From positions 1-64,000 of the forward strand of contig SCQQ01000025.1 in assembly GCA_004299095.1 (NCBI GenBank): a stretch of DNA of 64,000 bases, written 5' to 3'. A program made the translations under genes and the position numbers. Below the pieces are notes generated by a model. That model saw only the letters and a list, made by a program, of their open reading frames with translations. It searched no databases and was not told the origin of the DNA. Of this stretch, positions 33,657 through 49,666 are shown one piece after another. The DNA comes from Burkholderiaceae bacterium (GTDB taxonomy: Bacteria; Pseudomonadota; Gammaproteobacteria; Burkholderiales; Burkholderiaceae_C). Within the stretch, counting starts at the first letter, position 1; each line of letters starts with the position of its first letter.

Positions 33657-34562
33657 TCAGCAGTGCGCGACCACGTCGGCGTCGACCACCGGGTAGCCGG
33701 CGGTGGCGGCCGCGTTCATGGCGCGCGCGATCAAGTTGTGGACGACGAGCGGGTAGCACACGCTCACGGCGCCGGCGTCGCCCGGCTGGGCGCCGCGGGG
33801 CGTGCGCGTGAGGCGCTCGCGCAGGGCACCCCACGCATCGGGCGCGAACACGTCTTTCGGCTCCAGGCCGAAGCGCGCGAACTTGTGCGCCACGTAGCCT
33901 TCCAGGTCGTTGTCCAGCGGCGGCAGCTCCACCACTTCGCAACGCTGCATGACCTCGCGCACCTCGGGGTTCTGGCTGTTCAGGATGCGGCGCAGCTCGG
34001 GCTGGGCGATGAGCGCGATGCCGATCACGCGCGCCATGCCGTCCTTCAGTTCCAGGAAGCGCTTCAGGTGCTTGAGCGTGGGCAGCGGCAGGCAGTGCGC
34101 CTCCTCGATCACCAGCAGGTGGCGGCGGCCGGCGCGGCGGCTCGCTTTCAGCAGCTCATGCAATTGCGCAAAGCGCGCCTGCGGGCTGCTCTTGATCTTG
34201 AGCTGCGGATCCAGCGCGTAGGCAATGGCCTCGGCGATGTGCGTGGCGCGCAGCGTCTTGCCGCGGCTGTCGCTCGCCTCCATGGCGAGCACGTAGGGGC
34301 GGATGATGAGCACGTCGCGCTCCTCGTCGATCAGGCGCTGTTCCAGGTCTTCCACCAGCGTGCTCTTGCCCGCGCCGGATTCGCCCACCAGCGCCATGAA
34401 GCCGTGGTTCTGCGCGCAGTCCAGCAGCGCGGCGCGGGCGTAGCGCACGGCGGGGCTCTGGTAGACGTCGTCGCGGCTTTGCACGTCGTCCACGAACGGA
34501 CTGCGCGACAGCTTGAAGTGCGCCAGCGCCTTTTGGGTGACAGGGGTGTTTTGAAGTAGCAT
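33657..34562 (-). CDS. MuB-like AAA+ ATPase, transposition target-capture protein
   Basis: This 301-residue protein has Walker A GESGAGKST (about 60-68) and Walker B LLVIEEAH (about 149-156), with the ExeA/TniB-like AAA organisation used by Tn7/Mu-type transposition ATPases. The ATG at 34562 is preceded by a strong GAAGGAG. An upstream in-frame ATG at 34670 overlaps the previous stop and would add 36 residues. MuB binds target DNA and stimulates the transposase. It is downstream of the transposase gene as in Mu. Confidence 0.88.
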   Translation of the reverse strand: MLLQNTPVTQKALAHFKLSRSPFVDDVQSRDDVYQSPAVRYARAALLDCAQNHGFMALVGESGAGKSTLVEDLEQRLIDEERDVLIIRPYVLAMEASDSRGKTLRATHIAEAIAYALDPQLKIKSSPQARFAQLHELLKASRRAGRRHLLVIEEAHCLPLPTLKHLKRFLELKDGMARVIGIALIAQPELRRILNSQNPEVREVMQRCEVVELPPLDNDLEGYVAHKFARFGLEPKDVFAPDAWGALRERLTRTPRGAQPGDAGAVSVCYPLVVHNLIARAMNAAATAGYPVVDADVVAHC

Positions 34563-34666
34563 TGGGTCTTCTCCTTCGGTTGGGTTTTGGTGAACAGAAC
34601 TGCTTGGGGATGCCGCCTCGGCTGTTAGCGCAGCCGGGGCGTTTTCTTTGGTGGAACGGCGTGCGT

Positions 34667-34921
34667 TCATGACGGCTGGCGCAGCGTGTCGCGGATGTCG
34701 CTGGCGATCTGCAGGATGGCCACCAGGTCTTCGGCGCCGTGCGTGCCGCCTTGCTTGCACACCGCGTCCAGCGCCTGGTGCGCGTGCGCCGCGATGTCTT
34801 CGGCGCGCAGGGCGCAGCGCTCCATGCGGCCGAGCAGGTCGCAGTGCGCGCGCAGCCGCTCGCGCTCGGCCGGGCGCATGCCGCCGATGTGCGCAATCGT
34901 TTTGTCTATGGTTTGGGTCAT
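34667..34921 (-). CDS. Small protein between transposase and MuB-like genes
   Basis: This 84-residue protein begins MTQTIDKTIAHIGGMRPAER and is predicted to be all alpha-helical with three helices and two cysteines. It starts inside the last codons of the transposase gene. Small helical proteins are found here in several B3-like phages; function unknown. Confidence 0.6.
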   Translation of the reverse strand: MTQTIDKTIAHIGGMRPAERERLRAHCDLLGRMERCALRAEDIAAHAHQALDAVCKQGGTHGAEDLVAILQIASDIRDTLRQPS

Positions 34922-34937
34922 GGTCTTTCCTCTGGGG

Positions 34938-36728
34938 TCAGTTGGCTTTGGCATCGCTGCCGATCACGCGCAAGGTGGCGCGCACACTCAGGCGCTGCTG
35001 CAGCGCGGGTAACTCGGGCTCGGGCACGCCGGCGGGGTACCAGGCGCGCATCTGGCGCAGGCGCTCGGCATCCATTGGCAAGCCGGCGTCGGTGAGCGCC
35101 TTGCTCGCCTCGAAGAAGGTGAGCGCGCGCGGCGCGGCCGCGGCCACTTCGCCCACGCGCACGCTGGGCGTGACCTGCTCGCCGCGCCGGGGCAGCCAGG
35201 TGCGCGCGGGCGCCTGGTCGATGCGTTTCGCCGGATCGATGCGGCCGCCAAAGGGCGCCGTCCGGGCTTTCTGTGCGGCCTCGGCCTCATCGTTGGTGGC
35301 GGCGCCGTAGGCCAGGCGCTTCATGGCCTTGCGGTTGCGGTCGGCTTGCGTGTCGGCCGGGCGCGCCCAGTCTTCGCCGATCACGTTGGCATCGGCGCGG
35401 AAGTTGCCTTCGCCCACGCGCTCGACCATCGGCGCGTTTTCGTAGCGCTCATGGCCGTCGGCGTCGCGCACGATCACGGTGCAGCCGTCTTGCTGCGCCA
35501 CGCCGTAGGTGACCTGCAGCTTCTCGCCCACCAGCGCGCCGGGGATGCCGGAAACGTCGAACTCGCGCCCGTCGAACTGCACGGTCAGCGTGACGCTCAC
35601 CTTGCGCGGCTCGGGCGTGTGCACCAGCAGCTTCTGGCACACCTCGACCGCGGGCGGCTCGCGCAACTGCGCGGCGGCGATGGTCATCCAGCAGTCGGTG
35701 CGCGTCTTGCCGTGGCGCGTGTGCGCGCGGCTCGCGTTGAACCAGGCGGCCCAGCGGCCGGCCTGCGCGTTCAGCTCTTCCAGCCCCGCCACCGGTTTGA
35801 AGCGCAGGCCCGACTCAAAGCCGCGCTCGATGATGTCGCGCGCCTTCTCCACCTGGCCGGTGGCGCGCGCGCTGCCCGGTGCGTGCGCGATCAGCTCCAC
35901 GCCCAAGGCCCGTGCCAGGTTCTTGAACAGGCCGCTGGTGTTGGCGCTGCCCGGGTCCATCATGAGGATGCGCGGCACGCCGTGGAACGGCTCGTCCGGG
36001 CGCCGGTGCATGGCGCAAATGAACGATTCGGCCAGGTTGGCGCCGCTCTCGGCGCCCATCACGTAGTGCACGCCGATGGCGCCGCTGAAGTGGTCGGTCC
36101 ACTCGTATGACCACACCCGGTCGGCGGTGATGCGCGCCAGGTTCCTGGGCTTGTTCTTGTAGAAGCGCTCGCGCTCCATCACCTGCAGGCCGCTGTCGCG
36201 GCCGCGGCCTTCGTGCAGGTAATAGAGCACGCACAGGCTGGCGTCGATCTGCCACACGTGATTGGGGTGCAGGCTGGCGAGCTCCACCGCCGGCGCGGGC
36301 CGGTTCAGCTGGTCGGGGTGCAGGCCGTAGGCGCGCAGCGCGCGGGCGCAGGCGCTGGCCGAGAGCCGTGTAACTTCGCCCGTGGCGGCGTCGATCGCTT
36401 CGGCGCGCAGCTCGCCGTTGGCGCGCAGGATGTCCAGGGCGTCGCCCAGGCTCATCAGGCGCTTGCCGTTCTTGCGGTGGCTTTCCTGCAGGAAGGCGGA
36501 GAGCGTTTCCGCTTCCACGCGCGGCAGCGCCGACGTGCCAGCGTCCAGCCGCTCCTTGCGCCGCGGCGCCACGCGCACGTCGTGCATCCAGCGGTGCAGC
36601 GTGGGCAGCGAGCAGCCGAGCTCGGCGCACGCCGCGGCGTAGATCGCGCCCTTGGCGCCTTGCGGCGCGGTGGCGGCGGATTGGGCAATCTGCAACAGGC
36701 GGGGCATGATGGCGGCCTTGGGTGGCAT
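34938..36728 (-). CDS. MuA-like DDE transposase
   Basis: This 596-residue transposase has an N-terminal helix-turn-helix region ('CAELGCSLPTLHRWMHDV') and an RNase-H-like core. The catalytic triad is visible as D162 (in WQIDASLC), D258 (in LMMDPGSANTSG) and E294 (in TGQVEKARDII), a DD35E-type spacing. The C-terminal third follows the Mu transposase beta-barrel and a basic tail. It pairs with the AAA+ gene downstream. No good ribosome site precedes the first ATG; MPRLLQIAQ seven codons in is an alternative start. Confidence 0.95.
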   Translation of the reverse strand: MPPKAAIMPRLLQIAQSAATAPQGAKGAIYAAACAELGCSLPTLHRWMHDVRVAPRRKERLDAGTSALPRVEAETLSAFLQESHRKNGKRLMSLGDALDILRANGELRAEAIDAATGEVTRLSASACARALRAYGLHPDQLNRPAPAVELASLHPNHVWQIDASLCVLYYLHEGRGRDSGLQVMERERFYKNKPRNLARITADRVWSYEWTDHFSGAIGVHYVMGAESGANLAESFICAMHRRPDEPFHGVPRILMMDPGSANTSGLFKNLARALGVELIAHAPGSARATGQVEKARDIIERGFESGLRFKPVAGLEELNAQAGRWAAWFNASRAHTRHGKTRTDCWMTIAAAQLREPPAVEVCQKLLVHTPEPRKVSVTLTVQFDGREFDVSGIPGALVGEKLQVTYGVAQQDGCTVIVRDADGHERYENAPMVERVGEGNFRADANVIGEDWARPADTQADRNRKAMKRLAYGAATNDEAEAAQKARTAPFGGRIDPAKRIDQAPARTWLPRRGEQVTPSVRVGEVAAAAPRALTFFEASKALTDAGLPMDAERLRQMRAWYPAGVPEPELPALQQRLSVRATLRVIGSDAKAN

Positions 36729-36776
36729 GGCTCGGACTGGCGGCGGGTGGCTGCTGGGGCGGCGGCGCGGGCGCGC

Positions 36777-37700
36777 TCAGTGCGCGGCGGCTTCGGGTTC
36801 GACGGCCGCAGCCGGCGCAGCGGCGGGGCCCGACCACTGGGCCATCTCGGCGATGGTCTGCAGGTCGCGCGCGTTGCTCACGTCGGGCAGGTCGAACTCG
36901 TCGCGCAGCAGCGCGAGCTGGTGCGCCAGTTGCCCCACAAGGCCGGCGCAGAACACGGCGTTGCTGTCCGGGTCGTCGCGGCCGTCGTCCTTCAGTGCGA
37001 TCAGCGCCTGGCGCAAGTTGCCCCTGATGCAGCCGAGCGCATCGTTCATCTGGTCGGTGGCTTCCTTCTGCAGCGCGAGCAGCGCCTCGTCGCGCGGCAG
37101 CCTGGCAATGCGCTGTTTCTCGCGCTCCAACCGATCGATCTGTTTGTTCTTGGCGTTGATGCGCTCGCCCGCGGCTTGCAGGTCGGCCTTGGTGTCGCGC
37201 AGCGCGGCGCGCAGCTCCGACGCGCTCATGCGGTCGATGGTGTCCAGGCCCGCCACCGTTTTTTCAATCACCTCGTCGTCTTCGGTGATCAGTTCCAGGA
37301 AGGCTTTCTGGTTTTTGACTTCGGTCGCCAAAAGCGACACTGTGGCGCTTTTGGCGACCCTGGCCGCCGCTCGCATGAAGCGCTGCGCGGTCTTGATGTG
37401 GAAACCGAGTATTTCCACGCGCTGCACGAATTCCCCGTGCGGCGTCAGCTCCTTCAGCAGCAGCAGGCGCTTGCCGGTCTCCAGCAGCGCTTCCACGCTG
37501 CGCCGCTGGTAGAAACGGATTTCGTCCTCCAGCGCGCCCACGGTGAGCGTGCCGTCATAGCTGAGCTCGAGCGCCAGATGGTGTGCGGCGTCCTGCGCTT
37601 CGGTGGCCAGGTCTTGCCCGCGCGTCATTTGCTCGGCCATGGCCGGCAGGATTTCGGGCATGTCGGCGGGCGCCGCCGGGGTGTTCTTGGGTCTTGCCAT
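36777..37700 (-). CDS. DUF3102-like phage protein
   Basis: This 307-residue protein has the DUF3102-type signature 'SVEALLETGKRLLLLKELTP' followed by 'GFHIKTAQRFMRAAARV', an HTH-like, ParB-related core. A long coiled coil (about 165-225) and a helical C-terminus follow. It is upstream of the transposase and may organise DNA during early replication; role is inferred. Confidence 0.65.
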   Translation of the reverse strand: MARPKNTPAAPADMPEILPAMAEQMTRGQDLATEAQDAAHHLALELSYDGTLTVGALEDEIRFYQRRSVEALLETGKRLLLLKELTPHGEFVQRVEILGFHIKTAQRFMRAAARVAKSATVSLLATEVKNQKAFLELITEDDEVIEKTVAGLDTIDRMSASELRAALRDTKADLQAAGERINAKNKQIDRLEREKQRIARLPRDEALLALQKEATDQMNDALGCIRGNLRQALIALKDDGRDDPDSNAVFCAGLVGQLAHQLALLRDEFDLPDVSNARDLQTIAEMAQWSGPAAAPAAAVEPEAAAH

Positions 37701-37740
37701 TGCTCTCTCTCGCTTTCTCTTTGGGTTGTGGTGAAACGGG

Positions 37741-38040
37741 TCAGCGGCCGGTGAGCGCGCGCTCCTGGTCGTCGAGGCGCGTGCGCTGTCGGTCGATGTC
37801 TGCCAGCACGCGGAACGTCAGGCGCGTGAAATCGGGCGTGGGATAGAAGCGGCCGTTTTCGGGGTTCTTGCGCGCCCAGCCCTTGGCAATCAGTTGCGCC
37901 ATGGCGCGCGTGATGTTGGAGGCGCTGGTGCGCGCGGCGTCGGCCAGCTCGCGGTTGCTTGCGCCCGTGGCGGCAAAGCCCGCGAGCGCCTCCAGCACGT
38001 CGAGCGTGCGCAGCGTGAGGTTGCGGGTATCGGCGCTCAT
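37741..38040 (-). CDS. Small winged-helix (IclR/MarR-like) regulator
   Basis: This 99-residue protein matches a winged-helix fold: 'TLDVLEALAGFAATGASNRE' then recognition helix 'AARTSASNITRAMAQLIAKG' and wing 'RKNPENGRFYPTPDF'. It overlaps the previous gene by ATGA. Probably regulates phage early transcription. Family naming stays generic. Confidence 0.7.
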   Translation of the reverse strand: MSADTRNLTLRTLDVLEALAGFAATGASNRELADAARTSASNITRAMAQLIAKGWARKNPENGRFYPTPDFTRLTFRVLADIDRQRTRLDDQERALTGR

Positions 38041-38537
38041 TCGGCCAGCTCCAGTTGCGGCTCGGCAAAGCCGGCCACGTTGTGGTGGTGGTAAGCCACG
38101 GCCTCCAGGTGCCCGCGCAGCGCGTCGAGCACGGCTTGCGGGTCGGTGGCGCCTTCGCTCTTGTAGAAGTCGCTCAGGAGCTGCAGCGCGTGCTGGAAGC
38201 CGCTGCCGAGCTGCACCAGGTCGGCGGCGTCGGCGGCACGCCCGACGGGCATGGCCACCAGCAGCTTGTGCTGGGTGGCGGCAAGCCAGCGCGTGGCCAG
38301 GTCGATGCCGCAGACGTTCTCGTACGCGGGCAGCAGCACCGCCGGGAAACGCCCCGACTCGATCCACTTGTAGATGGCCCAGTGGTCGGCCAGGCCCATC
38401 AGGTCGGCAATGCGCTCGACGCTGAGGTTGTGGCGCTCGCGGGCGTAATCCTTGGCCTTGGCCAGGGCGTCGCGCAAGCTGGTGGGCTGGTAGCGCTTCC
38501 AGAAGCGGGCGCGCATTGGAGCGATGCGGACGGTCAT
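38037..38537 (-). CDS. Conserved early phage protein with HTH-like domain
   Basis: This 166-residue protein begins with 'MRARFWKRYQPTSLRDALAK' shortly after the first residues and contains 'LSVERIADLMGLADHWAIYK', an HTH-type helix pair seen in many Burkholderiales prophages. The C-terminal half is helical. It is read leftward from the early region. Probably a regulatory protein; exact role unknown. Confidence 0.7.
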   Translation of the reverse strand: MTVRIAPMRARFWKRYQPTSLRDALAKAKDYARERHNLSVERIADLMGLADHWAIYKWIESGRFPAVLLPAYENVCGIDLATRWLAATQHKLLVAMPVGRAADAADLVQLGSGFQHALQLLSDFYKSEGATDPQAVLDALRGHLEAVAYHHHNVAGFAEPQLELAE

Positions 38538-38634
38538 GGTGGCTCAGCGCTCCAAACAAAGAGTTGGCATGGGTCTGGGCAAGCCGGCGGCGGCCGTGAA
38601 CAATGGGCCCATCCCAATGAAACTGGAGGAATTC

Positions 38635-38874
38635 ATGACCGACACCGCCGTTCTGGATGCGCTGCAGGCGCTGCTTGACCAGCTGGCCGAATACCAGCAG
38701 CGCCACGCGGCGCTGGCGGCCGCATTTGTGGTGTTGGCGCGCCGCCCGCATGCCGGGCCGGACGTGCTGGCGCAGTCGCTGGACACGCTGGCTGCGACGG
38801 CGCCCGAGCCAGGCTGGCAAGCCGAACTTGCAGAACTTGCAGGCGCTTTGCGTTTGCCCGGTGACCGCGCATGA
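38635..38874 (+). CDS. Short protein oriented against the early operon
   Basis: This 79-residue helical protein (MTDTAVLDALQALLDQLAEY...) has a clear GGAGG site and interrupts the leftward early operon on the opposite strand. A further 25-residue frame begins at its stop (ATGA, 38871-38948) but has no support beyond the overlap. It could be an independently expressed cargo or regulatory gene. Not recognised. Confidence 0.5.
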   Translation: MTDTAVLDALQALLDQLAEYQQRHAALAAAFVVLARRPHAGPDVLAQSLDTLAATAPEPGWQAELAELAGALRLPGDRA

Positions 38875-38965
38875 GCACGGCGGCGATGGCGCGGGCTTTG
38901 CCGGTGGCGAGCGGGCGCGATGACCCCACGACGCGCGGGCTCGAATAAGATTCGCGCATGGCGGT

Positions 38966-39175
38966 CTACGCGGCTTCGGCCGTGGAGTGGACGTTGGCCT
39001 TCAGACCGAGCTGCACGGCGATCTTGTGTGATTCGCCGTAATAGCCCTTGTCGAAGCCGCCCATCACTCGGTAGACCTTGTTGGGTGTGTAGCCGTGCTC
39101 GCGGGCCCAGTCGGCGAGCGTGCGGCCTTCAGCGCGGAAGCGCTGGCGGACTTGATCGCGGGTTTGTACTTTCAT
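38966..39175 (-). CDS. Ner-like regulator, BcepMu gp16 family
   Basis: This 69-residue DNA-binding protein matches the phage-associated BcepMu gp16 family: 'RFRAEGRTLADWAREHGYTP' followed by 'KVYRVMGGFDKGYYGESHKI' and 'AVQLGLK'. In Mu the Ner repressor negatively regulates early transcription and repressor expression. It is the first gene leftward from the operator region and divergent from the repressor. Confidence 0.85.
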   Translation of the reverse strand: MKVQTRDQVRQRFRAEGRTLADWAREHGYTPNKVYRVMGGFDKGYYGESHKIAVQLGLKANVHSTAEAA

Positions 39176-39180
39176 CGCTG

Positions 39181-39265
39181 TGCAACTTGTTGAACGTTGG
39201 TTGGGTTTTGGTTGAGAGGATGATAGTGCACAAACGTGCAACATAGCAATAGTTGACTTGCACAA
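39181..39265. promoter_or_regulatory. Early promoter and operator region between Ner-like gene and repressor
   Basis: Leftward, -35 TTGCTA (39249-39244) and -10 TATCAT (39225-39220) are 18 bases apart. Copies of TGCA(C)A motifs lie at 39181-39186 (TGCAAC), 39227-39233 (TGCACAA), 39237-39242 (TGCAAC) and 39259-39265 (TGCACAA). Two sit inside the promoter spacer, ideal for repression. The last abuts the repressor ATG, for which no ribosome site is visible, so the repressor could be autoregulated and initiated without a typical leader. Confidence 0.65.
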
Positions 39266-39667
39266 ATGGACATTATTGGAACGCGACTACGTGAGGAGCG
39301 CGAACGATTGGGGATGACGCAAGACGGCTTCGCGGCAGCGGGCGCTGTCGGAAAGCGCGCGTTGATCCATTACGAAAAAGCGGAACGCTCACCCGACGCG
39401 GCGTTTCTCGCGGCCATTGCCGCCGCCGGCGCCGACGTGCTCTACATCCTCACGGGGCAACGGGCCCGAATGGGCGCACTTAAAGCGACCGAACCAGGCG
39501 CGGGCTACTCGTTTGCACGTACGCCGCGCGAGCGCGCGCTGCTGGACAACTACCGCGCCAGTCCCGACGCGGGCCGCCGCGTGATTGAGGGGGCGGCTAC
39601 TCTTGCAGCGCAATCAGCAACGGGCAAGGACAAGCCCCTGAAAAAGCGCGGCAACCAGGCGACTTGA
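39266..39667 (+). CDS. Prophage repressor, XRE-family helix-turn-helix
   Basis: This 133-residue protein starts MDIIGTRLREERERLGMTQD with a typical Cro/CI HTH ('MTQDGFAAAGAVGKRALIHY'). It has no peptidase or dimerisation domain of the LexA type, suggesting control by degradation as for Mu repressor or by another protein. It is divergent from the Ner-like gene and first of a rightward operon that includes Rex-like genes, so it should be expressed in lysogens. Confidence 0.88.
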   Translation: MDIIGTRLREERERLGMTQDGFAAAGAVGKRALIHYEKAERSPDAAFLAAIAAAGADVLYILTGQRARMGALKATEPGAGYSFARTPRERALLDNYRASPDAGRRVIEGAATLAAQSATGKDKPLKKRGNQAT

Positions 39668-39790
39668 GGAGTCGAGAAAACGCAGTCATGGAGTGGGGCA
39701 ACTATCCAGGGCGGCGAACCGCTGCCGGGCACCTAACGCGGCCCGAACGCAACCGATAATGGGTTCAACAAAAACAAAGGAGGCAGAGCG

Positions 39791-40124
39791 ATGACACGAC
39801 CCATCACGATCAACTTGTTCGACGTCTCGCGCGGCGCCAACACGCTGCCGCTCGAACAGGTACTGGACGAGTTTGCCGCGTTGGCCGTGGCGGACCGCTG
39901 GCGCGAGAACATCCGGCTCGACCGCGTGGCGCGGGTGCCGGCGGACGCGGCCCAAGTGCCTGCAACTCGCCGGGCGCTATGCCGCGATCGCCAAGTGCTT
40001 ACGGCCGCTTGCGCGTGAAGATGAGAGGCTGCAACGTGAAACAGCGCGCGCTGCGTTCAATGAACAATTGGCAATGACGCGCGCGGTCACGCGTGCGCCG
40101 CAAACGCTGGGAGGAAGACGATGA
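39791..40124 (+). pseudogene. Small gene upstream of the Rex-like pair, apparently frameshifted
   Basis: A strong AAAGGAGG site precedes ATG 39791. The first frame runs 'MTRPITINLFDVSRGANTLP' then 'EQVLDEFAALAVADRWRENI' but ends in an unlikely arginine/cysteine tail at 40018. From about 39950, a different frame gives a coding-like helical stretch ('REDERLQRETARAAFNEQLA') that ends TGA at 40124, overlapping the next ATG (ATGA). Joined, they give about 110 residues. Either a frameshift mutation, a sequencing error or programmed shifting explains it. The N-terminal strand-helix-strand could be RexA-like. Confidence 0.5.
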
Positions 40125-40951
40125 AACGGACTTATCAGGTGCGCTTCGCGCGGCCCGTGGTGGGCAAGGAAGCGACGCCGCTAGCGCCCAAGCTGCAGCA
40201 GCTATTCAAGGTGTACGGACCGCATTTGCCCGCGCAGGTTTGCGGCGGCGACCGTTTCCAGGTGCGCGATCTGGTGCGCACCGGCACGGTGTGGCACGGC
40301 GTTTTTGGCAAGCTGCGCGACGACGCGCCGCACTTGGTCAATGGTGCCAACGAGGAGCGCGAGCTGCCGCTGCACGACGGCGACCGGCTGCTGGAAAAAT
40401 GTCACTTTCTGTACCGCGAACGTAGCAACCTGCTGGTCTGGCAGTTGAACCGGGCGTCTGGCGGCATGAGCCGCTTGGAGAACTATTTGAGCCTGGCAAG
40501 CGAGGCGGTGGTGCTGGTGCCAGTGCTGATGAACACAGCCGAGCTCGAGGACGCGCTGCGGCACCGCATTTACGAGATTTCCTATGGCTACGACCGGCCA
40601 CCGGTGATGGACGCGAACGCGCCGGCGTGGAATCAGCGGCAGTTCGACAAAATGAAAGCCATGGAGGCCGGGCACGCAAAATTCCTATTTCGCGCTGCGC
40701 GCAAAGGGCAGCTCGCCGAAGGCGCAAAGGACATGGTGCGCGACGCGTTTGGCCTGAACGGCATAAAGAAGATACGCGTGCGCCTGACGGACGAGAGCGA
40801 TCCAATCGACTTGTTTGCCGCGCCGCTCAAGCATAAGATCAGCGTCGAAGTGCTGGGTCGCTACCCGGCAGCAAAAGAAGTGTTCGCGGAGCTCGAGAAT
40901 GCCTACGACCACAACCGGAATCTCATCGACGCAGGCGACGCGCCGTCTTGA
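40121..40951 (+). CDS. RexA-like prophage protein (276 residues), probable superinfection exclusion sensor
   Basis: The ATG overlaps the preceding stop (ATGA) and has a GGGAGG site. Length (276) equals lambda RexA (279) within three residues. By recall, three regions align in order: an N-terminal beta strand 'YQVRFARPVVG', 'VLVPVLMNTAELEDALRHRI' versus the RexA VQIEPLMRG segment, and 'VRLTDESDPIDLFAAPLKHK' with a terminal helix 'VFAELENAYDHNRN' versus the RexA C-terminus. No transmembrane helix. Followed after 13 bp by a four-helix membrane protein. Role in abortive exclusion is inferred from context; no experiment. Confidence 0.6.
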   Translation: MKRTYQVRFARPVVGKEATPLAPKLQQLFKVYGPHLPAQVCGGDRFQVRDLVRTGTVWHGVFGKLRDDAPHLVNGANEERELPLHDGDRLLEKCHFLYRERSNLLVWQLNRASGGMSRLENYLSLASEAVVLVPVLMNTAELEDALRHRIYEISYGYDRPPVMDANAPAWNQRQFDKMKAMEAGHAKFLFRAARKGQLAEGAKDMVRDAFGLNGIKKIRVRLTDESDPIDLFAAPLKHKISVEVLGRYPAAKEVFAELENAYDHNRNLIDAGDAPS

Positions 40952-40964
40952 AGGCTCGAGCGCG

Positions 40965-41384
40965 ATGCGCCCGCTGATCGCTCCGTTGATTGTCGCGCTG
41001 ATCGCGCTGATGCTGGCCGGCTTGACGCATTGGCCGCCAGCCCTTGCCGACCGGGCAGCCGCGCTGGCGTTCGCCGGCGCGATCCTGACCGTTGCGACGA
41101 CGCTGCTCGGCTTCACGCTTGCCGCGCTGGCGATCGTGGCGAGTATCACGCAGACCACGCTCGTGCAGCGCATGCACAAAACTGGCCATTACGACGACCT
41201 TCTACGCACGCTGTTTTACGCGGGCGCGGTGTTTCTGGCAATCGACATGCTCGGCTTCGCACTGCTCTTTGGTACGCCTGCAACCACCGGCGTGATGTCC
41301 GTCGCGCTGGCGTTGCACGCGGCCGCCCTGGTGCTGCTGATCGATGCGGCGCGCAAATTCCGGCTGGTGCTGACGAATCTGTAA
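40965..41384 (+). CDS. RexB-like four-helix inner-membrane protein (139 residues)
   Basis: Start has a GAAGG site 13 bases after the RexA-like stop. Four hydrophobic segments (about 2-20, 33-60, 80-103, 108-128) with a basic loop between helix 2 and 3 ('TTLVQRMHKTGHYDDLLRT') match lambda RexB (144 residues, four helices) in number, spacing and loop charge. In lambda RexB is an ion channel activated by RexA that depolarises the cell on superinfection. This product is in the same repressor-led operon. Annotation as RexB analog is structural inference. Confidence 0.62.
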   Translation: MRPLIAPLIVALIALMLAGLTHWPPALADRAAALAFAGAILTVATTLLGFTLAALAIVASITQTTLVQRMHKTGHYDDLLRTLFYAGAVFLAIDMLGFALLFGTPATTGVMSVALALHAAALVLLIDAARKFRLVLTNL

Positions 41385-41394
41385 CATCGGCCGC

Positions 41395-41784
41395 ATGAAA
41401 GCCGCCGCATTCATTGTTTCCGCGCTCGTGTTTGCCATGCCCGCGGTGGCGCAGGTCTACAAATGCCCCGACGCCGCCGGCCATACCGTGATCCAGCAAC
41501 TGCCTTGCGCGGGCGGCAACAAAATGGACGTGAAGCCCGCGAGCGGCGCAGGCACCGATGACCCTGAACAGCTGCGCCTCTTGCGCGCCGTTGCCACCGG
41601 CAAAGTCACGCCCGGCATGACGGCGGAGCAAATGCGCACATCATGGGGCAGCCCGACATCGATCAACCGATCCGTGGGGTCGTACGGCGTGCATGAGCAG
41701 TGGGTTTACCGGTGGAGCAACGGGAAAACGCAGTACGTCTACCTCCAGAACGGCGTGGTGACGAGCTTCCAGACTCCAGATTGA
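41395..41784 (+). CDS. Exported small protein with DUF4124-like N-terminus and SmpA/OmlA-like C-terminus
   Basis: This 129-residue precursor has a signal ending in AMPAVAQ, a DUF4124-like 'VYKCPDAAGHTVIQQLPCAG' with two cysteines, and a C-terminal half resembling SmpA/BamE-type folds ('KVTPGMTAEQMRTSWGSPTS' to 'QWVYRWSNGKTQYVYL'). It starts 10 bases after the RexB-like stop, so is likely lysogen-expressed. A periplasmic lysogenic-conversion or superinfection-blocking factor is possible. Not a usual lysis gene. Confidence 0.65.
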   Translation: MKAAAFIVSALVFAMPAVAQVYKCPDAAGHTVIQQLPCAGGNKMDVKPASGAGTDDPEQLRLLRAVATGKVTPGMTAEQMRTSWGSPTSINRSVGSYGVHEQWVYRWSNGKTQYVYLQNGVVTSFQTPD

Positions 41785-41915
41785 CGTGGCTACCGGCACG
41801 ATGGCCGGCTGCTGCGCAGCGCGACTGCCAGCCCTGACGCCCCCGCGGCACACGCCGTCCCGTAATTGACTCGCGTCCTTTAAGCCCGGGCGCACTCCCG
41901 CGGCACAGTCACTGC

Positions 41916-42116
41916 ATGACTGAGCCCGCCCACCCGTGCGCCGCGTGCGCGCACTTCGACCCGCGCAAGAGCGATCTGGGTCATCTGGGCTTTGGCCAGT
42001 GCAGCCACATGCCCGCCTGGCGCCACGTCAGTGGCCGCTCGGCGTGCGCTTTTCACCCCTGTCGCTGGAGCCCTCACCGTGAAAAACCTGCGCCAAAAAT
42101 CCACCGCGCTCTTTAG
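41916..42116 (+). CDS. Small cysteine/histidine-rich phage protein
   Basis: This 66-residue protein begins MTEPAHPCAACAHFDPRKSD and contains seven cysteines or histidines in CxxC..H..C patterns ('CAACAHFDPR', 'GQCSHMPAW'). Such short zinc-binding proteins precede lysis genes in other Burkholderiales Mu-like prophages. It overlaps the next gene. Start lies in a CAGTCA-CTGCA-TGACTG dyad at 41905-41921. Confidence 0.55.
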   Translation: MTEPAHPCAACAHFDPRKSDLGHLGFGQCSHMPAWRHVSGRSACAFHPCRWSPHREKPAPKIHRAL

Positions 42117-42492
42117 CCGCGCCGTGCACGTCCGCATGGCCGATTGGGCGCTGGCCGCGCTGATCCTGCTGGCGGTGGTGGCGCTGATCGCGCCGCAGCA
42201 GCTGGGCGTGAGCGTCTACAAGATGAGCCTGATTGCGCTGGCCGCGCTCGCGGGCTACTGGATCGACCGCAGCGCGTTTCCGTACGCGCGGCCCGACAGC
42301 TACTTTGATCCGCCCAAGGGTGGCCAGGAAACCACCTTCACCGCGATCCGCGGCGTGGTCAACTTTACCGAGCGCGTGATCGACCCGGACAAGGCCGACG
42401 ACGATCAACTTCTGACGCTGGCGCGCACCGCGATGCTGCGCCGCGCCTTGATCATGGCCGCGACCATGCTGGCCGTGAGCCTGGGGGCGTGA
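42079..42492 (+). CDS. Putative holin-like membrane protein
   Basis: Starting at GTG 42079 (GGAG 8 bases upstream), this 137-residue protein has two hydrophobic helices near 'WALAALILLAVVALIA' and 'MSLIALAALAGYWID', a polar middle and a short third helix at the C-terminus ('ALIMAATMLAVSLGA'). It is directly upstream of the transglycosylase and spanins, the usual holin place. Overlaps both neighbours. The function is inferred from topology and position. Confidence 0.6.
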   Translation: MKNLRQKSTALFSRAVHVRMADWALAALILLAVVALIAPQQLGVSVYKMSLIALAALAGYWIDRSAFPYARPDSYFDPPKGGQETTFTAIRGVVNFTERVIDPDKADDDQLLTLARTAMLRRALIMAATMLAVSLGA

Positions 42493-43160
42493 GCGCGATG
42501 GACTGGTTCGCCCGCGCCGCCCAGACCGCCTTGCTGCTGGTGGTGGCGCTGCTGTTGCTGGCGCTGTCCGCCACCGTATCCGCCGTGCTGGGCGCGGAGC
42601 TGCCGCCGCCCGCCGCCGCGCGCTACCAGCGCCTGCTCACGCGCCAGGCGCACATGCAATGGGGCCTCAATGCGCCGATTGCCGCGATGGCCGCGCAGGT
42701 GCAGCAGGAAAGCGCCTGGAACCCGCAGGCCGTGAGTCGCGCCGGAGCGCGCGGGCTGGCGCAGTTCATGCCGGCCACCGCCACGTGGTGGTGCGAGAAG
42801 CTCGGGCTTTCGGTCACCGCCTGCCAACCCCACAACGCCACGTGGGCGTTGCGCGCGCTGGCGGGCTACGACAAGTTTCTGTACGACCGCGTGTCCGCGC
42901 GCTTTGGCCCGTTCGACCGCCTGTGGCTCGCGCTGCGCGGCTACAACGGCGGCGAGGGCCACGTGACGGCCGAGGCCAAGGCGACCGGGCTGGCCGCGCC
43001 CACGCGGCAGCAGATCGACGCCGCCTGCGGCCAGGCGCGCCGCGCCAAGCTGCACTGCGCCGAGAACCTGGGCTACCCGGCGCGCATCCTGCTCACGCTG
43101 CAGCCGCGCTACGCCACTTGGGGCCCGCAGGTGTTGCCGGTCACGGAGGCGGCGCGGTGA
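42489..43160 (+). CDS. Endolysin: lytic transglycosylase, SLT domain, with signal-anchor
   Basis: This 223-residue enzyme has an N-terminal hydrophobic helix (about 10-32, possibly a signal-anchor-release type) and an SLT domain with catalytic Glu at 74 in 'VQQESAWNPQAVSRAGARGL', then 'QFMPAT' and 'ALRGYNGGEG'. It cleaves peptidoglycan glycosidic bonds for lysis. Overlaps the holin-like gene and the Rz-like gene. Confidence 0.9.
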   Translation: MSAMDWFARAAQTALLLVVALLLLALSATVSAVLGAELPPPAAARYQRLLTRQAHMQWGLNAPIAAMAAQVQQESAWNPQAVSRAGARGLAQFMPATATWWCEKLGLSVTACQPHNATWALRALAGYDKFLYDRVSARFGPFDRLWLALRGYNGGEGHVTAEAKATGLAAPTRQQIDAACGQARRAKLHCAENLGYPARILLTLQPRYATWGPQVLPVTEAAR

Positions 43161-43705
43161 GCATCGCCATCAAGCTCGCCCTGGCGCTGGTCGTGGCGCT
43201 GGCGTCGTACTTCGGCACCAACGCCTTGACCGAGCACTACCGCGCGCAAGGCCGCGCCGAGGTGCAGGACAAGTGGGATGCGGCCAATCTGAAACAGGAG
43301 CGGGATCATGCAGAAGCCGTCGCGAAAAGCGAAATACAAGAGCGCGCGAAGGAACGCGCCGCGCAAGTTGCATCGGAAGAAAACGCGCGCGCTGCGGCAC
43401 ACCGCGAAGCCGTTTTGCGCAGTCGCGCCGCTGATCTTGACCGCAGCGTTGACGGGTTGCGCCGCGAGCTTGCCGCCACCGACCGCGCTTTTGCCGCCTA
43501 CCGTGCAGCCCGCCCGGATGCCGCTGCCGGCGCCGGGCCTGATGCAGCCGCCGCCGGCGCCCGAGAGCTTTTTGGACAGTGCGCAGACCGATATGCAGGC
43601 ATGGCAAAAAGCGCTGCAAACCTCTCGGCCCAAGTGATCGGGCTGCAGGCGCACGTGCTGGTGATTCAACCCGAGGCCGCGCGCCTCATGGAGCCGCTTG
43701 AATGA
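43157..43705 (+). CDS. Rz: Rz-like inner-membrane spanin
   Basis: The GTG at 43157 overlaps the endolysin stop (GTGA). The 182-residue protein has an N-terminal signal-anchor ('ALALVVALASYFGTN') and a long charged helical periplasmic domain with 'VAKSEIQERAKERAAQVASE'. It works with the outer-membrane Rz1 lipoprotein encoded inside it to fuse membranes during lysis. Confidence 0.85.
   Translation: MSIAIKLALALVVALASYFGTNALTEHYRAQGRAEVQDKWDAANLKQERDHAEAVAKSEIQERAKERAAQVASEENARAAAHREAVLRSRAADLDRSVDGLRRELAATDRAFAAYRAARPDAAAGAGPDAAAAGARELFGQCADRYAGMAKSAANLSAQVIGLQAHVLVIQPEAARLMEPLE
43308..43637 (+). CDS. Rz1: Rz1-like outer-membrane spanin lipoprotein, embedded in Rz
   Basis: Read in a different frame inside the Rz gene, this frame encodes a lipobox 'LILTAALTGC' followed by a proline-rich mature part ('AASLPPPTALLPPTVQPARM'). 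Such small proline-rich lipoproteins nested in Rz are a hallmark of spanins. The first ATG gives a 109-residue precursor with a long basic leader; a start closer to the signal is possible. Confidence 0.85.
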   Translation: MQKPSRKAKYKSARRNAPRKLHRKKTRALRHTAKPFCAVAPLILTAALTGCAASLPPPTALLPPTVQPARMPLPAPGLMQPPPAPESFLDSAQTDMQAWQKALQTSRPK

Positions 43706-44004
43706 CGCCCAACTGGACTGGCTGGCAAGCCGACGCGATCTTGTTGATTGGGCTGATCGTGCTGGCGGTTTACCTGTGGCGCATGGCCAAGGTACTGGCG
43801 GAGGTGAACCACCAGCAAAAGCACATGCAGCAGCGCATCGACCAGTTGCCGGGGACGGAGTTGATGACCGACCTGCGCCTGCAGCTCGGCCGCATGGAGG
43901 CGCTGGGCGAGAGCACGCAGCGCGAAATCCACGCCACCGGCGCGCGCCTGCGCCGGGTGGAAGACTATTTGATGGAGGCCAAGCGCCATGGTGATGACGT
44001 CTAA
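43702..44004 (+). CDS. DUF2730 phage protein
   Basis: This 100-residue protein has an N-terminal transmembrane helix ('AILLIGLIVLAVYLWRM') and a coiled-coil periplasmic or cytoplasmic region ending in 'RLRRVEDYLM', characteristic of DUF2730 (Mu gp25 position). The start overlaps the Rz stop by ATGA. Role in Mu-like phages unknown. Confidence 0.8.
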   Translation: MTPNWTGWQADAILLIGLIVLAVYLWRMAKVLAEVNHQQKHMQQRIDQLPGTELMTDLRLQLGRMEALGESTQREIHATGARLRRVEDYLMEAKRHGDDV

Positions 44005-44293
44005 ATTCAAGGACCACGTGGCCGCCGAGCGCCGCCTGGCCATCCTGCAAACGCTGGCCGAGAGCGTGGGCTACCAGGCCAACGAATACACGCTGGAGGC
44101 GCTACTGGAAGACCTGGCGCTGGGCGTGAGCAACGCGCGGCTACGCGCCGATTTGGCGCATTTGGCCGAGCTGGGCCTGCTGGAGACCAACGGCGTGGGC
44201 GGCGTGACGATTGCGCACCTGACGCGCGCCGGCCTGGACGCCGCCGCCGGCAAGAGCCAGGTGCCCGGCGTGGCGCGGCCGCGGCCGGAATGA
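43988..44293 (+). CDS. VpaChn25_0724-family phage protein (Mu gp26-like)
   Basis: This 101-residue winged-helix-like protein matches 'FKDHVAAERRLAILQTLAES' and ends 'HLTRAGLDAAAGKSQVPGVA', the pattern I associate with this Mu-like family. It overlaps the previous gene and has GGAGG upstream. It could be a regulatory or packaging accessory. Confidence 0.82.
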   Translation: MVMTSKFKDHVAAERRLAILQTLAESVGYQANEYTLEALLEDLALGVSNARLRADLAHLAELGLLETNGVGGVTIAHLTRAGLDAAAGKSQVPGVARPRPE

Positions 44294-44305
44294 AGGAGAG
44301 CCGAG

Positions 44306-44581
44306 ATGACGGATACCCCGCGCGTTACGCCCGAGCAGATTGACGCCTGCATCGTGAAAGAGCAGTACCACCGCTTTGCCGGAACGACGCTCACCGTGTG
44401 CGCGCTCACGCTGCGCAACGGCTACACCGTGACCGGCGAAAGCGCCAGCGTGACGGCGGCCGGCTTCAACGCCGAGATCGGCCGCAAGATCGCCCGCGAA
44501 GACGCTCGCGACAAGATTTGGGCGCTTGAGGGCTACCTGCTGCGCGAGCAGCTGCATCGGGCGTCGCCCCGGACGTACTGA
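44306..44581 (+). CDS. Gp49-family phage protein
   Basis: This 91-residue protein begins MTDTPRVTPEQIDACIVKEQ and has the Gp49 pattern of 'LTLRNGYTVTGESASV' and 'AREDARDKIWALEGYLLRE'. Widely found before the small terminase in transposable phages. Function unknown. AAGGAG precedes its start. Confidence 0.82.
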   Translation: MTDTPRVTPEQIDACIVKEQYHRFAGTTLTVCALTLRNGYTVTGESASVTAAGFNAEIGRKIAREDARDKIWALEGYLLREQLHRASPRTY

Positions 44582-44593
44582 GGATGTATTGAC

Positions 44594-45145
44594 ATGGGCC
44601 GCCGCTCCACCGTCGCCGCGCTGCCGAAAGAGCTGCTCGAGCGCTGCCACGCGCTGATCCGCGAGGGCTACACGATCGAGGAAATCCTGGGCGCGCTACA
44701 GGGCATGGGCGCCGAGGTGTCGCGCTCGGCCGTGGGGCGCTACGTGAAGAGCGCGCGCGAGACGTTCGAGAAATACCGCCAGGCGCAGGAAGTGGCCAAG
44801 GTGTGGGTGGACAAACTGGAGGCCGAGCCCGCGGGCGACGTGGGGCGACTGCTGCCCGAAATGCTGCGCACCGTGGCGTTCCAAACGCTCACCAGCATGG
44901 GCGAGGGCGAGGCGGACGCGAAGCCCGCCGACATCATGCTGCTGGCGCGCGCCATCAAGGACGTGGCGGGCGCCACCAAGACCAACATCGACGTCGAGCT
45001 GCAGCTGCGCCGCGTGCGCGAGCAGATTGCCGCGCGCGCCGACGCCGCGGCCAAGGCCGCCGCCAAGGAAATGAAGCAGGCCGGCGTTTCAGCAGACACG
45101 ATCGCCGCCATCCGGCAGCGCATTCTGGGGGTGGCTGCGCCGTGA
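44594..45145 (+). CDS. Small terminase subunit (DUF3486, Mu gp27-like)
   Basis: This 183-residue protein begins MGRRSTVAALPKELLERCHA, contains an HTH-like N-terminus ('EEILGALQGMGAEVSRSAVG') and a coiled C-terminus 'QLRRVREQIAARADAAAKAA'. DUF3486 proteins are the DNA-recognition subunit of the Mu-like packaging motor. It precedes the large terminase, with one short gene between. Confidence 0.88.
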   Translation: MGRRSTVAALPKELLERCHALIREGYTIEEILGALQGMGAEVSRSAVGRYVKSARETFEKYRQAQEVAKVWVDKLEAEPAGDVGRLLPEMLRTVAFQTLTSMGEGEADAKPADIMLLARAIKDVAGATKTNIDVELQLRRVREQIAARADAAAKAAAKEMKQAGVSADTIAAIRQRILGVAAP

Positions 45146-45303
45146 AAGCCGGACGATTCTTCATGGGCGTCGCACCGCGCGAGTCCTTTGCCCGCGTTGT
45201 ATTCGTCGTGCGAAACATCCACCCGGCGGCGCGCGGCTTTTGCATTCACATCGGCGGGCGTGAACTTTGGGTTTGCGTGAACCCGCCGCGGGTGCGCCAA
45301 TGA
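45142..45303 (+). CDS. 53-residue peptide between terminase subunits
   Basis: GTG 45142 overlaps the small terminase stop (GTGA), and the stop overlaps the large terminase ATG (ATGA). The product contains a beta-rich 'ARVVFVVRNIHPAARGFCIH'. Both overlaps suggest a genuine small gene. Function unknown. Confidence 0.5.
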   Translation: MKAGRFFMGVAPRESFARVVFVVRNIHPAARGFCIHIGGRELWVCVNPPRVRQ

Positions 45304-46697
45304 CAACGAAGCCCCGCGGCAACGCCCAGCGCATCCCCGAGCAGCCGGACGCGCTTTTCCTGCCGTTCCAGGCGAAGTGGGTGGCGGACGATTCGCGCCT
45401 GAAGCTCATGGAAAAGAGCCGCCAGATCGGCATCAGCTGGTCCACGGCGTACAAGGCGGTGGAGCGCACCGCGGCCGCTGGCGCCGGGCACGACCAGTGG
45501 GTGTCGAGCCGCGACGACCTGCAGGCGCGCCTGTTCCTGGAAGACTGCAAGATGTTTGCCGAGGCGCTGCAGATGGCGGCCACGGATTTGGGCGAGCAGG
45601 TGATCGACCCGGAGCGCAAGATCACCGCCTACGTGCTGCAGTTCGCCAACGGGCGGCGCATCCATTCGATGAGCAGCAACCCCGACGCGCAGGCGGGCAA
45701 GCGCGGCGGCCGCATCCTGGATGAGTTCGCGCTGCACCCGGATCCGCGCAAGCTGTGGAGCATTGCCTACCCCGGCATCACGTGGGGCGGCTCGATGGAG
45801 CTGGTCTCCACGCACCGCGGCAGCCACAACTTCTTCAACGCGCTGGTGCGTGAGGCGCGCGAGGGCGGCAACCCCAAGCGCATCAGCCTGCACCGTGTGA
45901 CGCTGCAGGACGCGCTGGACCAGGGCTTTCTCTACAAGCTGCAGCAGACGCTGCCGGCGGACGACGAGCGCCAGGCGATGGACGAGGCGGCGTACTTCGA
46001 CTTCGTGAAAAAAGGCGCGGCCGACGAAGAGAGCTTCCAGCAGGAGTACATGTGCCAGCCCGCCGACGACGACGTGGCGTTCCTGGAGTACGACCTGATC
46101 GCCGCCTGCGAATACGCCGAAAGCGCCCGCTGGCAAACGCGCGAGAAGGGGCGCCTGTTCGCCGGCGTGGACATCGGCCGCAAGAAAGACCTGACCGTTC
46201 TTTGGGTGGTGGAGCTGCTGGGCGACGTGGCCTACACGCGCCACGTGGAGGCGCTGCAGGCCATGGCCAAGGGCGACCAGGAGAAGGTGCTGTGGCCGTG
46301 GTTTGAGCGCTGCGACCGGGTGTGCATCGACGCCACCGGGCTGGGTATTGGCTGGGCGGACGACGCGCAGAAGAAGTTCGGCGCGTACAAGGTGGAGGGC
46401 GTGACGTTTACCGCGCGGGTGAAGGAGCAGCTCGCCTACCCGGTGCGCTCGGCCATGCAGGAGCGCCGGCTGCGCATTCCGTTTTCCGGCGCGATCCGCG
46501 CCGACCTGCGGTCGATCACCAAGCAGACCACCGCCGCAGGCAATATCCGCTTCACGGCCGAGCGCACGCCCGATGGCCACGCCGACCGCTTCTGGGCACT
46601 GGCGCTGGCGATCCATGCCGCCGCCCGCCCGGCCGCGCCCATTGAATACCTGAGCGACGGGCCGATCGGCGCCGGCGACTACGAGGGCTACCTGTAA
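45300..46697 (+). CDS. Terminase large subunit (Mu gp28-like)
   Basis: This 465-residue protein packages DNA into heads. The degenerate Walker A region 'MEKSRQIGISWSTAY' lies near 38-50; Walker B ILDEF (D141/E142) follows. The C-terminal nuclease has acidic residues in 'FAGVDIGRKKDLTVLW' (D291), 'CIDATGLG' (D344) and 'DGHADRFWA' (D429). The start overlaps the small gene. Confidence 0.93.
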   Translation: MTTKPRGNAQRIPEQPDALFLPFQAKWVADDSRLKLMEKSRQIGISWSTAYKAVERTAAAGAGHDQWVSSRDDLQARLFLEDCKMFAEALQMAATDLGEQVIDPERKITAYVLQFANGRRIHSMSSNPDAQAGKRGGRILDEFALHPDPRKLWSIAYPGITWGGSMELVSTHRGSHNFFNALVREAREGGNPKRISLHRVTLQDALDQGFLYKLQQTLPADDERQAMDEAAYFDFVKKGAADEESFQQEYMCQPADDDVAFLEYDLIAACEYAESARWQTREKGRLFAGVDIGRKKDLTVLWVVELLGDVAYTRHVEALQAMAKGDQEKVLWPWFERCDRVCIDATGLGIGWADDAQKKFGAYKVEGVTFTARVKEQLAYPVRSAMQERRLRIPFSGAIRADLRSITKQTTAAGNIRFTAERTPDGHADRFWALALAIHAAARPAAPIEYLSDGPIGAGDYEGYL

Positions 46698-48259
46698 TGC
46701 CTACAAAAACGGCCGCAAGAATTAACACGCCCCCGGCGCGCCCGCCGCTGGATACCGAAACCGCCAGCGCCGCGCTGGACCCGTTCGCCAGCATCTTCAT
46801 GGGCGTGCTGCAGAGCAACGACCCGCTGATCATCGAGCGCGGGCTGAACGGCAGCCAGGCGCATGAGCTGTACCGCGACCTGCGGCGCGACGGCAAGGTG
46901 TTTGCCGGCCTGCAAAAGCGCAAGTTGGCGGTGGTGAGCCGCCCGTGGACGGTGGAGCCGGTGAGCGACGACGCCGCCGGCAACGCCGACGCCGCGGTGG
47001 TGAGCGACATCCTGAAAGGCTTTGCCTTCGACCAGCTTTGCAACGACTTGATGGACGCGCTCTTGGTGGGCTGGCAGCCGGCGGAAATCATCTGGACGCT
47101 GGCGCCCGTGGCCGGCGCGCGCGAGCGGGTGGTGCCGCGGCGCGTGGTCAAGCGCGCGCACCGGCGCTTCGTCTACCTGCAGGAGGCGGGCCAGCCGGCC
47201 GCGCTGCGGCTGCTGACGCGCGAGCACATGCAGCAAGGCATCGCGCTGCCCGAGCGCAAGTTCATCGTGCATCGGGTCAACGCCGAGGACGACAACCCCT
47301 ACGGCACCGGCCTCGGGCTGCAGCTTTACTGGCCGGTGTATTTCAAACGCAAGGGGGTGCTGGCGTGGACCAAGTTCCTCGATCGCTTTGGTCTGCCGAT
47401 CCCGTGGGGCAAGTACCCGACGAGCGCCACGCCGCGCGAGAAAGGCACGCTGTTCGACGCGCTGCGCGCCGTGAGCAACGACGGCATGATCATGACGCCC
47501 GAGGGCACCATGATCGAGCTGCTGGAGAGCAAGTTGAGCGGCAGCGGTACGCCGCACCAGGCGCACGTGGAATTCATGGACGACTGGATCATGGAAGTGA
47601 TCCTGGGCCAGTCGCCACGCGGCGGCAGCGGCGGCGCGCTGGCCGCCGCCGCCAACGAGCGCCAGGACGTGCGCTTGGAGTTGAGCCAGGCCGACAGCGA
47701 CCTGCTGTCCGAGACGCTGAACGCCACTCTGGTCAAGTGGATTTGCGAGCTGAACGGCCTGGCGCCTTGCACCGTGTACCGCAAGGTCGAGGCCGAGGAA
47801 GACACGAAGGCAACCAGCGAGTCCGACCTGAACGTGACGCAGATGGGCTTCCAGATGACCGAAGAGGCGGTGCGCGCCAAGTACGGCGAAGGCTGGGAGA
47901 AAAGCGCCAATCCGCCATCGGCTGGGGCGAACCCGGCGAACTCGTTCCACACGAACCTTACTATTCCGGCCAGTGGGTCGAGCAATTTTGCCGAGGCGCC
48001 GCACGCGCACGCCAGCACAGACCAGGTAGCGCTGGACGACGCGCTCGACAAGATGCTGGCCGACGACGCATTGCAGCAGCAAATGGAGCAGGTTTTGGCG
48101 CCGGTCTTCGAACAGTTGCAGAAGGAAAACGACCCGCAAGCCATGCTCGGATGGCTGGCGGAACGCTTCCCCGATCTGCCCGAAGACGCGTTGCAGGAGC
48201 GCCTGAGCCAGGTGCTGTTTGCCGCGGCGGTGTGGGGCCGGCTGCATGGCAAAGCCTGA
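46697..48259 (+). CDS. Portal protein (DUF935, Mu gp29-like)
   Basis: This 520-residue protein begins MPTKTAARINTPPARPPLDT. It has DUF935 features: 'RRDGKVFAGLQKRKLAVVSR' and a central 'ENPYGTGLGLQLYWPVYFKR'-like segment (here DDNPYGTGLG). Forms the dodecameric ring at the capsid vertex. ATG overlaps the terminase stop by one base (TAATG). Confidence 0.93.
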   Translation: MPTKTAARINTPPARPPLDTETASAALDPFASIFMGVLQSNDPLIIERGLNGSQAHELYRDLRRDGKVFAGLQKRKLAVVSRPWTVEPVSDDAAGNADAAVVSDILKGFAFDQLCNDLMDALLVGWQPAEIIWTLAPVAGARERVVPRRVVKRAHRRFVYLQEAGQPAALRLLTREHMQQGIALPERKFIVHRVNAEDDNPYGTGLGLQLYWPVYFKRKGVLAWTKFLDRFGLPIPWGKYPTSATPREKGTLFDALRAVSNDGMIMTPEGTMIELLESKLSGSGTPHQAHVEFMDDWIMEVILGQSPRGGSGGALAAAANERQDVRLELSQADSDLLSETLNATLVKWICELNGLAPCTVYRKVEAEEDTKATSESDLNVTQMGFQMTEEAVRAKYGEGWEKSANPPSAGANPANSFHTNLTIPASGSSNFAEAPHAHASTDQVALDDALDKMLADDALQQQMEQVLAPVFEQLQKENDPQAMLGWLAERFPDLPEDALQERLSQVLFAAAVWGRLHGKA

Positions 48260-49586: not shown

Positions 49587-49666
49587 ACCCAATCGACTTC
49601 CGCTTGCGCGGCGCCACGCCTCCAGGGAGCGTATCTACCCATGACCCAGCGCGTTGAATTATCAAG

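Follow-up and report, generated by a model that had tools for sequence, protein, structure and literature searches.

The RexA and RexB proteins of phage lambda are a pair that halts the multiplication of other viruses in a cell already harbouring lambda. They form a classic phage-exclusion system, the trigger of which is still open. As counted in January 2026 in the accessible text of PMC12894663, there are five RexAB-like systems: those of lambda, Sbash, CarolAnn, Butters and Pseudomonas putida (RexABpp). RexABpp (PP_5643-5644, prophage P1) is a two-gene pair that follows a CI-like repressor, with other genes in the interval, and has a four-helix membrane protein; its RexA came to light through HHpred or structure alone (Dali Z 8.8 to 8TWQ). 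According to the same text its function is demonstrated: defence needs both genes, and the membrane is damaged once the membrane protein is activated (PMC12894663). The available descriptions of Sbash gp30/gp31 and CarolAnn gp44/gp43 show a two-gene exclusion logic, again with a four-helix membrane partner (PMC6426596, PMC6426606). The Sbash pair is reported to have its own promoter, and therefore a position behind the repressor is not a strict RexAB feature.

Exclusion genes are also described in transposable phages. The B3-like phages Fc02 and Ps56 use olg1, which is DEDDh exonuclease-like, and gene 10, neither of them Rex-like; in Fc02 these genes sit near the repressor (accessible text of PMC9936078). 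In the accessible text of PMC4378225, PMC9936078, PMC11796409, PMC3324506, PMC10884400 and PMC11990801, taken from literature joining Rex with Mu-like or transposable terms, we found no Rex-like pair in a transposable phage, in agreement with the initial annotation of the locus described here.

That locus lies in a 64,000-nucleotide stretch of DNA (the window), in which two adjacent genes follow the repressor of a prophage. We consider it probable, at roughly 75%, that they constitute an abortive exclusion module of RexAB type from a divergent branch, with a DUF6731 protein as its RexA, in a B3-like prophage. Like Fc02 and Ps56, this would be a B3-like transposable prophage with exclusion genes. 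It resembles RexABpp in gene position, in its membrane protein and in the manner in which its RexA is recognized, a likeness drawn from the published description. It differs from the Sbash and CarolAnn systems, which have RexA partners of 370-372 aa and belong to actinobacterial phages.

The gene pair and its prophage

The features of the locus are listed below in window coordinates.

34938..36728, minus strand: transposase A of a B3-like transposable phage (phrog_310, 1.9e-107)
38966..39265, minus strand: Ner-like HTH gene, divergent from the repressor (phrog_925, 1.8e-25)
39266..39667, plus strand: prophage repressor, HTH_3, 133 aa, divergent from the Ner-like gene (Pfam HTH_3, 3.9e-7)
39791..40120, plus strand: candidate small gene (Shine-Dalgarno AAAGGAGG; GC3 frame plot)
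40121..40951, plus strand: rexA-like gene, DUF6731, 276 aa, soluble product P0001 (PF20505; predicted model)
40965..41384, plus strand: rexB-like gene, 139 aa, four membrane helices, product P0002 (PADLOC RexB; family profile; model)

The reading frames, the lengths of 276 and 139 aa and the 13-bp gap between the co-oriented genes were all as first annotated, and the lambda sizes quoted for comparison (279 aa for rexA, 144 aa for rexB) were correct. Both frames are open and carry a coding-type, in-frame GC3 bias (0.79 for the rexA-like and 0.81 for the rexB-like gene). The arrangement is like that of lambda in protein sizes and in the order repressor, rexA, rexB on one strand. The pair had been placed directly downstream of the repressor. 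It does lie behind the immunity repressor on the same strand, but the repressor ends at 39667 and the rexA-like gene starts at 40121, with one small gene between; position 39791, given as the start of the cassette, is the start of this small gene. Unlike in lambda, then, a gene intervenes, and the phage is transposable and not lambdoid. A promoter and terminator scan of 38900-42000 gave a single promoter-like site, on the minus strand, and none ahead of the cassette.

The small gene, which has a strong Shine-Dalgarno sequence, contains a 75-aa open reading frame (39791-40018), without a match among phage records, and a second, overlapping frame (39873-40124) that closes in an ATGA overlap with the rexA-like start; no single open frame runs through to this overlap. 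GC3 favours frame 0 up to about position 39960 and not beyond. The gene is perhaps frameshifted; it may be broken, misread or two short genes. This unclear frame, together with a frameshifted rexA in one relative, might be taken to mean that the pair is RexAB-like by descent and inactive in the window prophage, which is compatible with the other readings discussed below. We hold such inactivity to be quite unlikely in view of the two open, GC3-biased rex-like frames and of a transposase and a terminase that are likewise long open frames.

The surroundings match Pseudomonas phage B3. Transposase A is 47.7% identical to that of B3, 51.4% to that of KP12 and 51.8% to that of PhiKM, and the B3 gene order is kept: transposase, DUF3102, regulator, CII-like gene, Ner, divergent repressor, lysis genes, terminase (TerL) and Mu portal (46865-47887). 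The Ner-like gene shares 57% identity over 56 aa with the B3 ORF17 region, and by tblastn the repressor is 39% identical to the B3 ORF18 repressor region. Among the lysis genes, a B3-type holin homologue (41992-42492) shares 52% identity over 56 aa with the holin region of B3, and a transglycosylase is also present. At the DNA level, megablast of window positions 34000-50000 returned no relatives among phage records. From the transposase and the gene order we assign the prophage to the B3 type of transposable phages (Beetrevirus type), which narrows the earlier and correct designation as Mu-like. In the slot behind the repressor B3 has ORF20 and ORF21, where the window prophage has the small gene and the pair; the pair thus occupies what seems to be an accessory slot.

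Relationship of the two proteins to RexA and RexB

P0001 belongs to the Pfam family DUF6731 (PF20505; 43.6 bits against a cut-off of 27), which also matches 15 of 19 aligned relatives at E ≤ 0.05. This family has no assigned function, and the term DUF6731 did not occur in the literature searched. Sequence comparison with lambda RexA was uniformly negative. Pfam RexA (PF15969) did not match P0001 at E ≤ 1, while matching lambda RexA itself at 1e-97. Neither PADLOC RexA nor, at E ≤ 1, Pfam RdgC matched P0001, and blastp against lambda RexA returned chance fragments only. When the P0001 family was compared with RexA using hhalign, the score of 21.4 was not above controls, being exceeded by 2 of 365 unrelated soluble open reading frames (counted after four family members had been set aside). 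The family profile found two chance matches among PDB sequences, with E values of 1 and 1.3.

The predicted structure gave a different picture. A model of P0001 built from 19 homologues (m9b78f241df65; mean pLDDT 83.3, pTM 0.68) was searched with Foldseek against 350,542 PDB chains, and lambda RexA was the best match (8twq_B, E 4.9e-8, probability 1.00; 8twq_A, 2.6e-7), followed by RdgC (2owl_A, 3.7e-4) and then Iml3. RdgC and Iml3 are the fold relatives reported for RexA itself in the accessible text of PMC11077077. Among 996 chains aligned with VIA-align, RexA reached Z 13.7 with an rmsd of 2.7 Å over 146 residues, and the next chain Z 8.3. The whole-chain TM-score to RexA was 0.37-0.39. This low value may reflect a differing orientation of the two domains or an imperfect model (pTM 0.68); lambda RexA is a two-domain protein whose domain arrangement is reported to change on DNA binding (PMC11077077, accessible text), and such movable domains may account for it. 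Judged by the model, P0001 has the RexA/RdgC fold, with an RdgC-like split globular domain, and is nearer to RexA than to RdgC; an identity as RdgC is not borne out. A structural comparison, which could have contradicted the kinship with RexA, was thus favourable, and since hhalign stayed within its controls the proposed homology to RexA rests on the predicted fold.

For the membrane protein the relationship emerged at the profile level. The model of P0002 (pLDDT 87.2) has four main helices (5-21, 30-60, 75-102 and 108-138), and its hydropathy peaks are in register with those of lambda RexB (3-21 with 8-26, 40-58 with 48-66, 83-101 with 84-102, and 108-126 with 116-134), bearing out the topology originally proposed. 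The basic loop lies between helices 2 and 3, at the expected position; its charge is weak, for it contains R and K but is net 0 (K/R minus D/E), and the lambda loop is visibly more basic. PADLOC RexB matches P0002 at 2.8e-5 and 13 of 20 members of its family at E ≤ 0.05, whereas Pfam RexB (PF15968) matches neither P0002 nor, at that threshold, any of the 20 members.

A profile HMM of these 20 members scored lambda RexB at 18.1 bits, compared with a maximum of 6.5 among 87 slices of membrane proteins. In hhalign the family matched RexB with a score of 26.8 (probability 28, E 6e-4); controls, which were membrane proteins or slices in three sets of 16, 17 and 87, gave no more than 17.8. Pairwise comparison was insensitive: blastp of P0002 with lambda RexB gave no alignment, and 17 of 300 block-shuffles reached the score of the global alignment, which is not significant. 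The short segments that had seemed to agree by eye therefore did not survive pairwise testing of either protein. Kinship is visible only through family profiles for RexB and through predicted structure for RexA. On profile evidence P0002 is a RexB homologue, and by architecture, fold and RexB profile the pair is of RexAB type, while lying outside the Pfam RexA and RexB sequence families.

The specificity of the profile also bears on the idea that this is a lysis-related or holin-like accessory pair that merely resembles RexAB. Such a role would suit a small multi-helix membrane protein, and in the window, as in locus L008, the pair stands shortly before lysis genes. Scanned over 5,321 open reading frames (at least 75 aa, from the window and all loci, which had been fetched for reasons other than the membrane gene), however, the profile returned 64 at 12 bits or more. 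Of these, 50 (counting duplicates) are partners of the first gene and the other 14 are RexB proteins of lambda type, with nothing else among them. The prophage already possesses its B3-type holin homologue and transglycosylase, and at three loci (L012, L025 and L026) the pair is away from lysis genes. On the strength of the holin homologue and the profile specificity, we regard a lysis function as extremely improbable.

The best PDB alignments of the P0002 model (NINJ1, Z 13.5, and designed three-helix bundles) were discarded, this range being uninformative for helical proteins. In the viral structure library BFVD the best matches of the P0001 and P0002 models both came from one phage, ctylc9. 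The second match of P0002 was a 165-aa Sbash protein (probability 0.96 but E 0.21), which is probably gp31, as gp31 also has 165 aa. Profiles of the P0001 and P0002 families gave no signal against the Sbash and CarolAnn proteins.

Linkage, distribution and setting of the pair

Homologues were gathered with the first gene alone from phage records, viral contigs and genomes, with membership of the first family set at 25 bits or more against the P0001-family profile. A membrane gene of the second family was found directly behind the first gene in all 31 distinct loci, the window included; the initial annotation had named rare adjacency, and absence from the side of repressors, as grounds for rejecting it. 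Here, directly behind means that the longest frame of the second gene starts between 200 bp before and 300 bp after the end of the first; the starts observed fell between −136 and +28 bp, the first piece of locus L023 excepted. Loci counted as distinct when their first proteins differed in the last 60 residues, with duplicates merged, and the resulting 32 keys were reduced by one because the frameshifted gene of L023 is in two pieces. Twelve of the 31 membrane proteins had not been used in building the profile.

Association with a repressor was looser. Across 23 loci (the last eight, L100-L110, lie outside this count), 11 have a same-strand repressor-type gene upstream, either directly or with one to two genes between, and in the other 12, some of them near contig ends, no repressor was seen by eye within about 2 kb. 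The Pfam test was applied to those genes picked by eye as likely repressors: the window gene matched HTH_3, and all ten others HTH or S24. Linkage to the membrane gene is thus closer than linkage to the repressor.

The family is rare: it occurs in 2 of 399 genomes from the order, in 1 of 299 from the family and in 2 of 369 from the class, with the window's genome counted every time. By tblastn, P0001 matched three phage records and P0002 none of 50,697; P0001 was absent from plasmids and, when used alone as query, from viral contigs. Relatives were carried by 3 of 398 Pseudomonas genomes, two of which were already among the loci; this is the genus of P. putida NBRC 14671 (L028), where a DUF6731 pair follows a repressor-type gene. 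None of the relatives in viral contigs and Pseudomonas genomes could be identified as PP_5643 of KT2440.

Several loci differ in condition or setting. In Alcaligenaceae bacterium 429 (L023, 4339-5218) a frameshift cuts the rexA-like gene in two, and the membrane gene is open. In Escherichia phage vB_EcoS-733R5 (L007, 2483-3871) the family gene, which has a four-helix partner, is annotated as 'portal (connector) protein', and the pair is on the opposite strand between Q and the lysis genes.

A B3-type transposase was found in none of the 22 records that hold the other loci, and the Mu portal and Mu transposase families then served to recognize transposable phages. The contig that bears the pair also carries a Mu portal gene in the window and, among the 23 genomes or records surveyed, in four others. 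One of these settings, L008/G399, has the order repressor-type gene, small gene, rexA-like gene, rexB-like gene, amidase, terminase and portal. In three Mu-type phages the pair is in the late operon, away from the repressor, flanked by a Mu G-like and an I-like gene (Pfam Phage_tail_S and Mu-like_Pro):

L012, 3024-6352: pair in late operon
L025, 3822-7267: pair in late operon, with a Mu-type transposase on the same contig
L026, 3810-7079: pair in late operon, with a Mu-type transposase on the same contig

These three loci, together with the 12 of 23 that have no visible repressor, indicate that expression in the lysogen is not general, and the late-operon site poses the question of when the pair is expressed.

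The same settings bear on a different reading, in which the RexA-like protein chiefly tunes the lysis-lysogeny switch of its own phage through binding to DNA or to the repressor, the membrane protein is its antagonist, and exclusion is a by-product or absent. There is precedent in lambda, where RexA biases the CI-Cro switch without RexB and exclusion does not track DNA binding (accessible text of PMC11077077), and the repressor-type gene ahead of the pair in 11 of 23 loci would fit. Against this, the pair is away from the repressor in the three Mu-type late operons and in L007, where tuning of the switch would need action in trans, and the complete linkage to the membrane gene is tighter than that to the repressor. 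We consider this reading unlikely. The variety of loci, the three late-operon cases included, does make it possible to ask whether Rex is chiefly a matter of defence or of switch control.

In viral contigs L014 and L015 the repressor-type gene upstream of the pair and the Ner gene are 39-44% identical to those of the window (44% for the repressor by tblastn). Neither a Mu portal nor a B3 transposase was found in these records, which may be fragments. It may be that different phage types have the immunity region in common.

Proposed mode of action and wider occurrence

The reading as a RexAB-type exclusion module, and with it the interpretation first offered for the locus, is supported, and its anti-phage role is a prediction by analogy with described systems. 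Placed behind the repressor, the pair would be made in the lysogen. The soluble protein would probably dimerise and bind DNA, as judged from RexA and RexApp, and upon infection by another phage it might detect a phage protein or an intermediate of replication or recombination. It could then switch on the membrane protein through the conserved loop between helices 2 and 3 (about residues 61-78), which includes KTGHY, the strongest motif of the family. Sbash gp31 with either of the substitutions R70A and D73A, which lie between helices 2 and 3 in its central cytoplasmic part, is described as inactive in defence (PMC6426596, accessible text), consistent with such a role. By analogy with lambda, Sbash, CarolAnn and RexABpp, the membrane protein would depolarise or permeabilise the inner membrane, resulting in growth arrest and abortion of the infection.

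The roles of the two proteins could also be reversed. In Butters gp30/gp31, a system of the same anatomy, toxicity resides in the soluble protein, which its membrane partner restrains until infection, whereas lambda, Sbash, CarolAnn and RexABpp use the membrane protein as effector (accessible text of PMC12894663). The conserved loop of the membrane protein would fit either logic, and we consider the Butters arrangement very unlikely for the window pair.

If the pair is indeed an exclusion module of RexAB type, the uncharacterised family DUF6731 would acquire a probable function, some thirty sequence-diverse natural pairs from different temperate phages would be added to those described, and Rex systems would extend to transposable phages. 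Automatic defence annotation is likely to miss the pair, as PADLOC RexA does not match it and PADLOC RexB does so weakly. More speculatively, DUF6731 and its membrane partner might represent a separate, mobile branch of Rex, a moron passed between temperate phages of unrelated kinds (lambdoid, B3-like and Mu-like) and inserted either after the repressor or between late genes G and I. The RdgC-like RexA of transposable phages might then detect or clamp intermediates of strand transfer and replication, and exclusion would in this way be tied to transposition or to the lytic switch of the prophage itself. We offer this combined proposal tentatively, as a possibility with the odds against it.

Two further observations concern neighbouring genes. 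In L025 (2435-3715) and L026 (2439-3704) a PBECR2 nuclease-like domain forms the C-terminal part of the Mu F-like head protein. In L020 (2739-3989, 416 aa) and L023 (2261-3421, 386 aa) similar-looking genes precede the pair, and by eye we take their products to resemble the N-terminal domains of type I restriction HsdR proteins.
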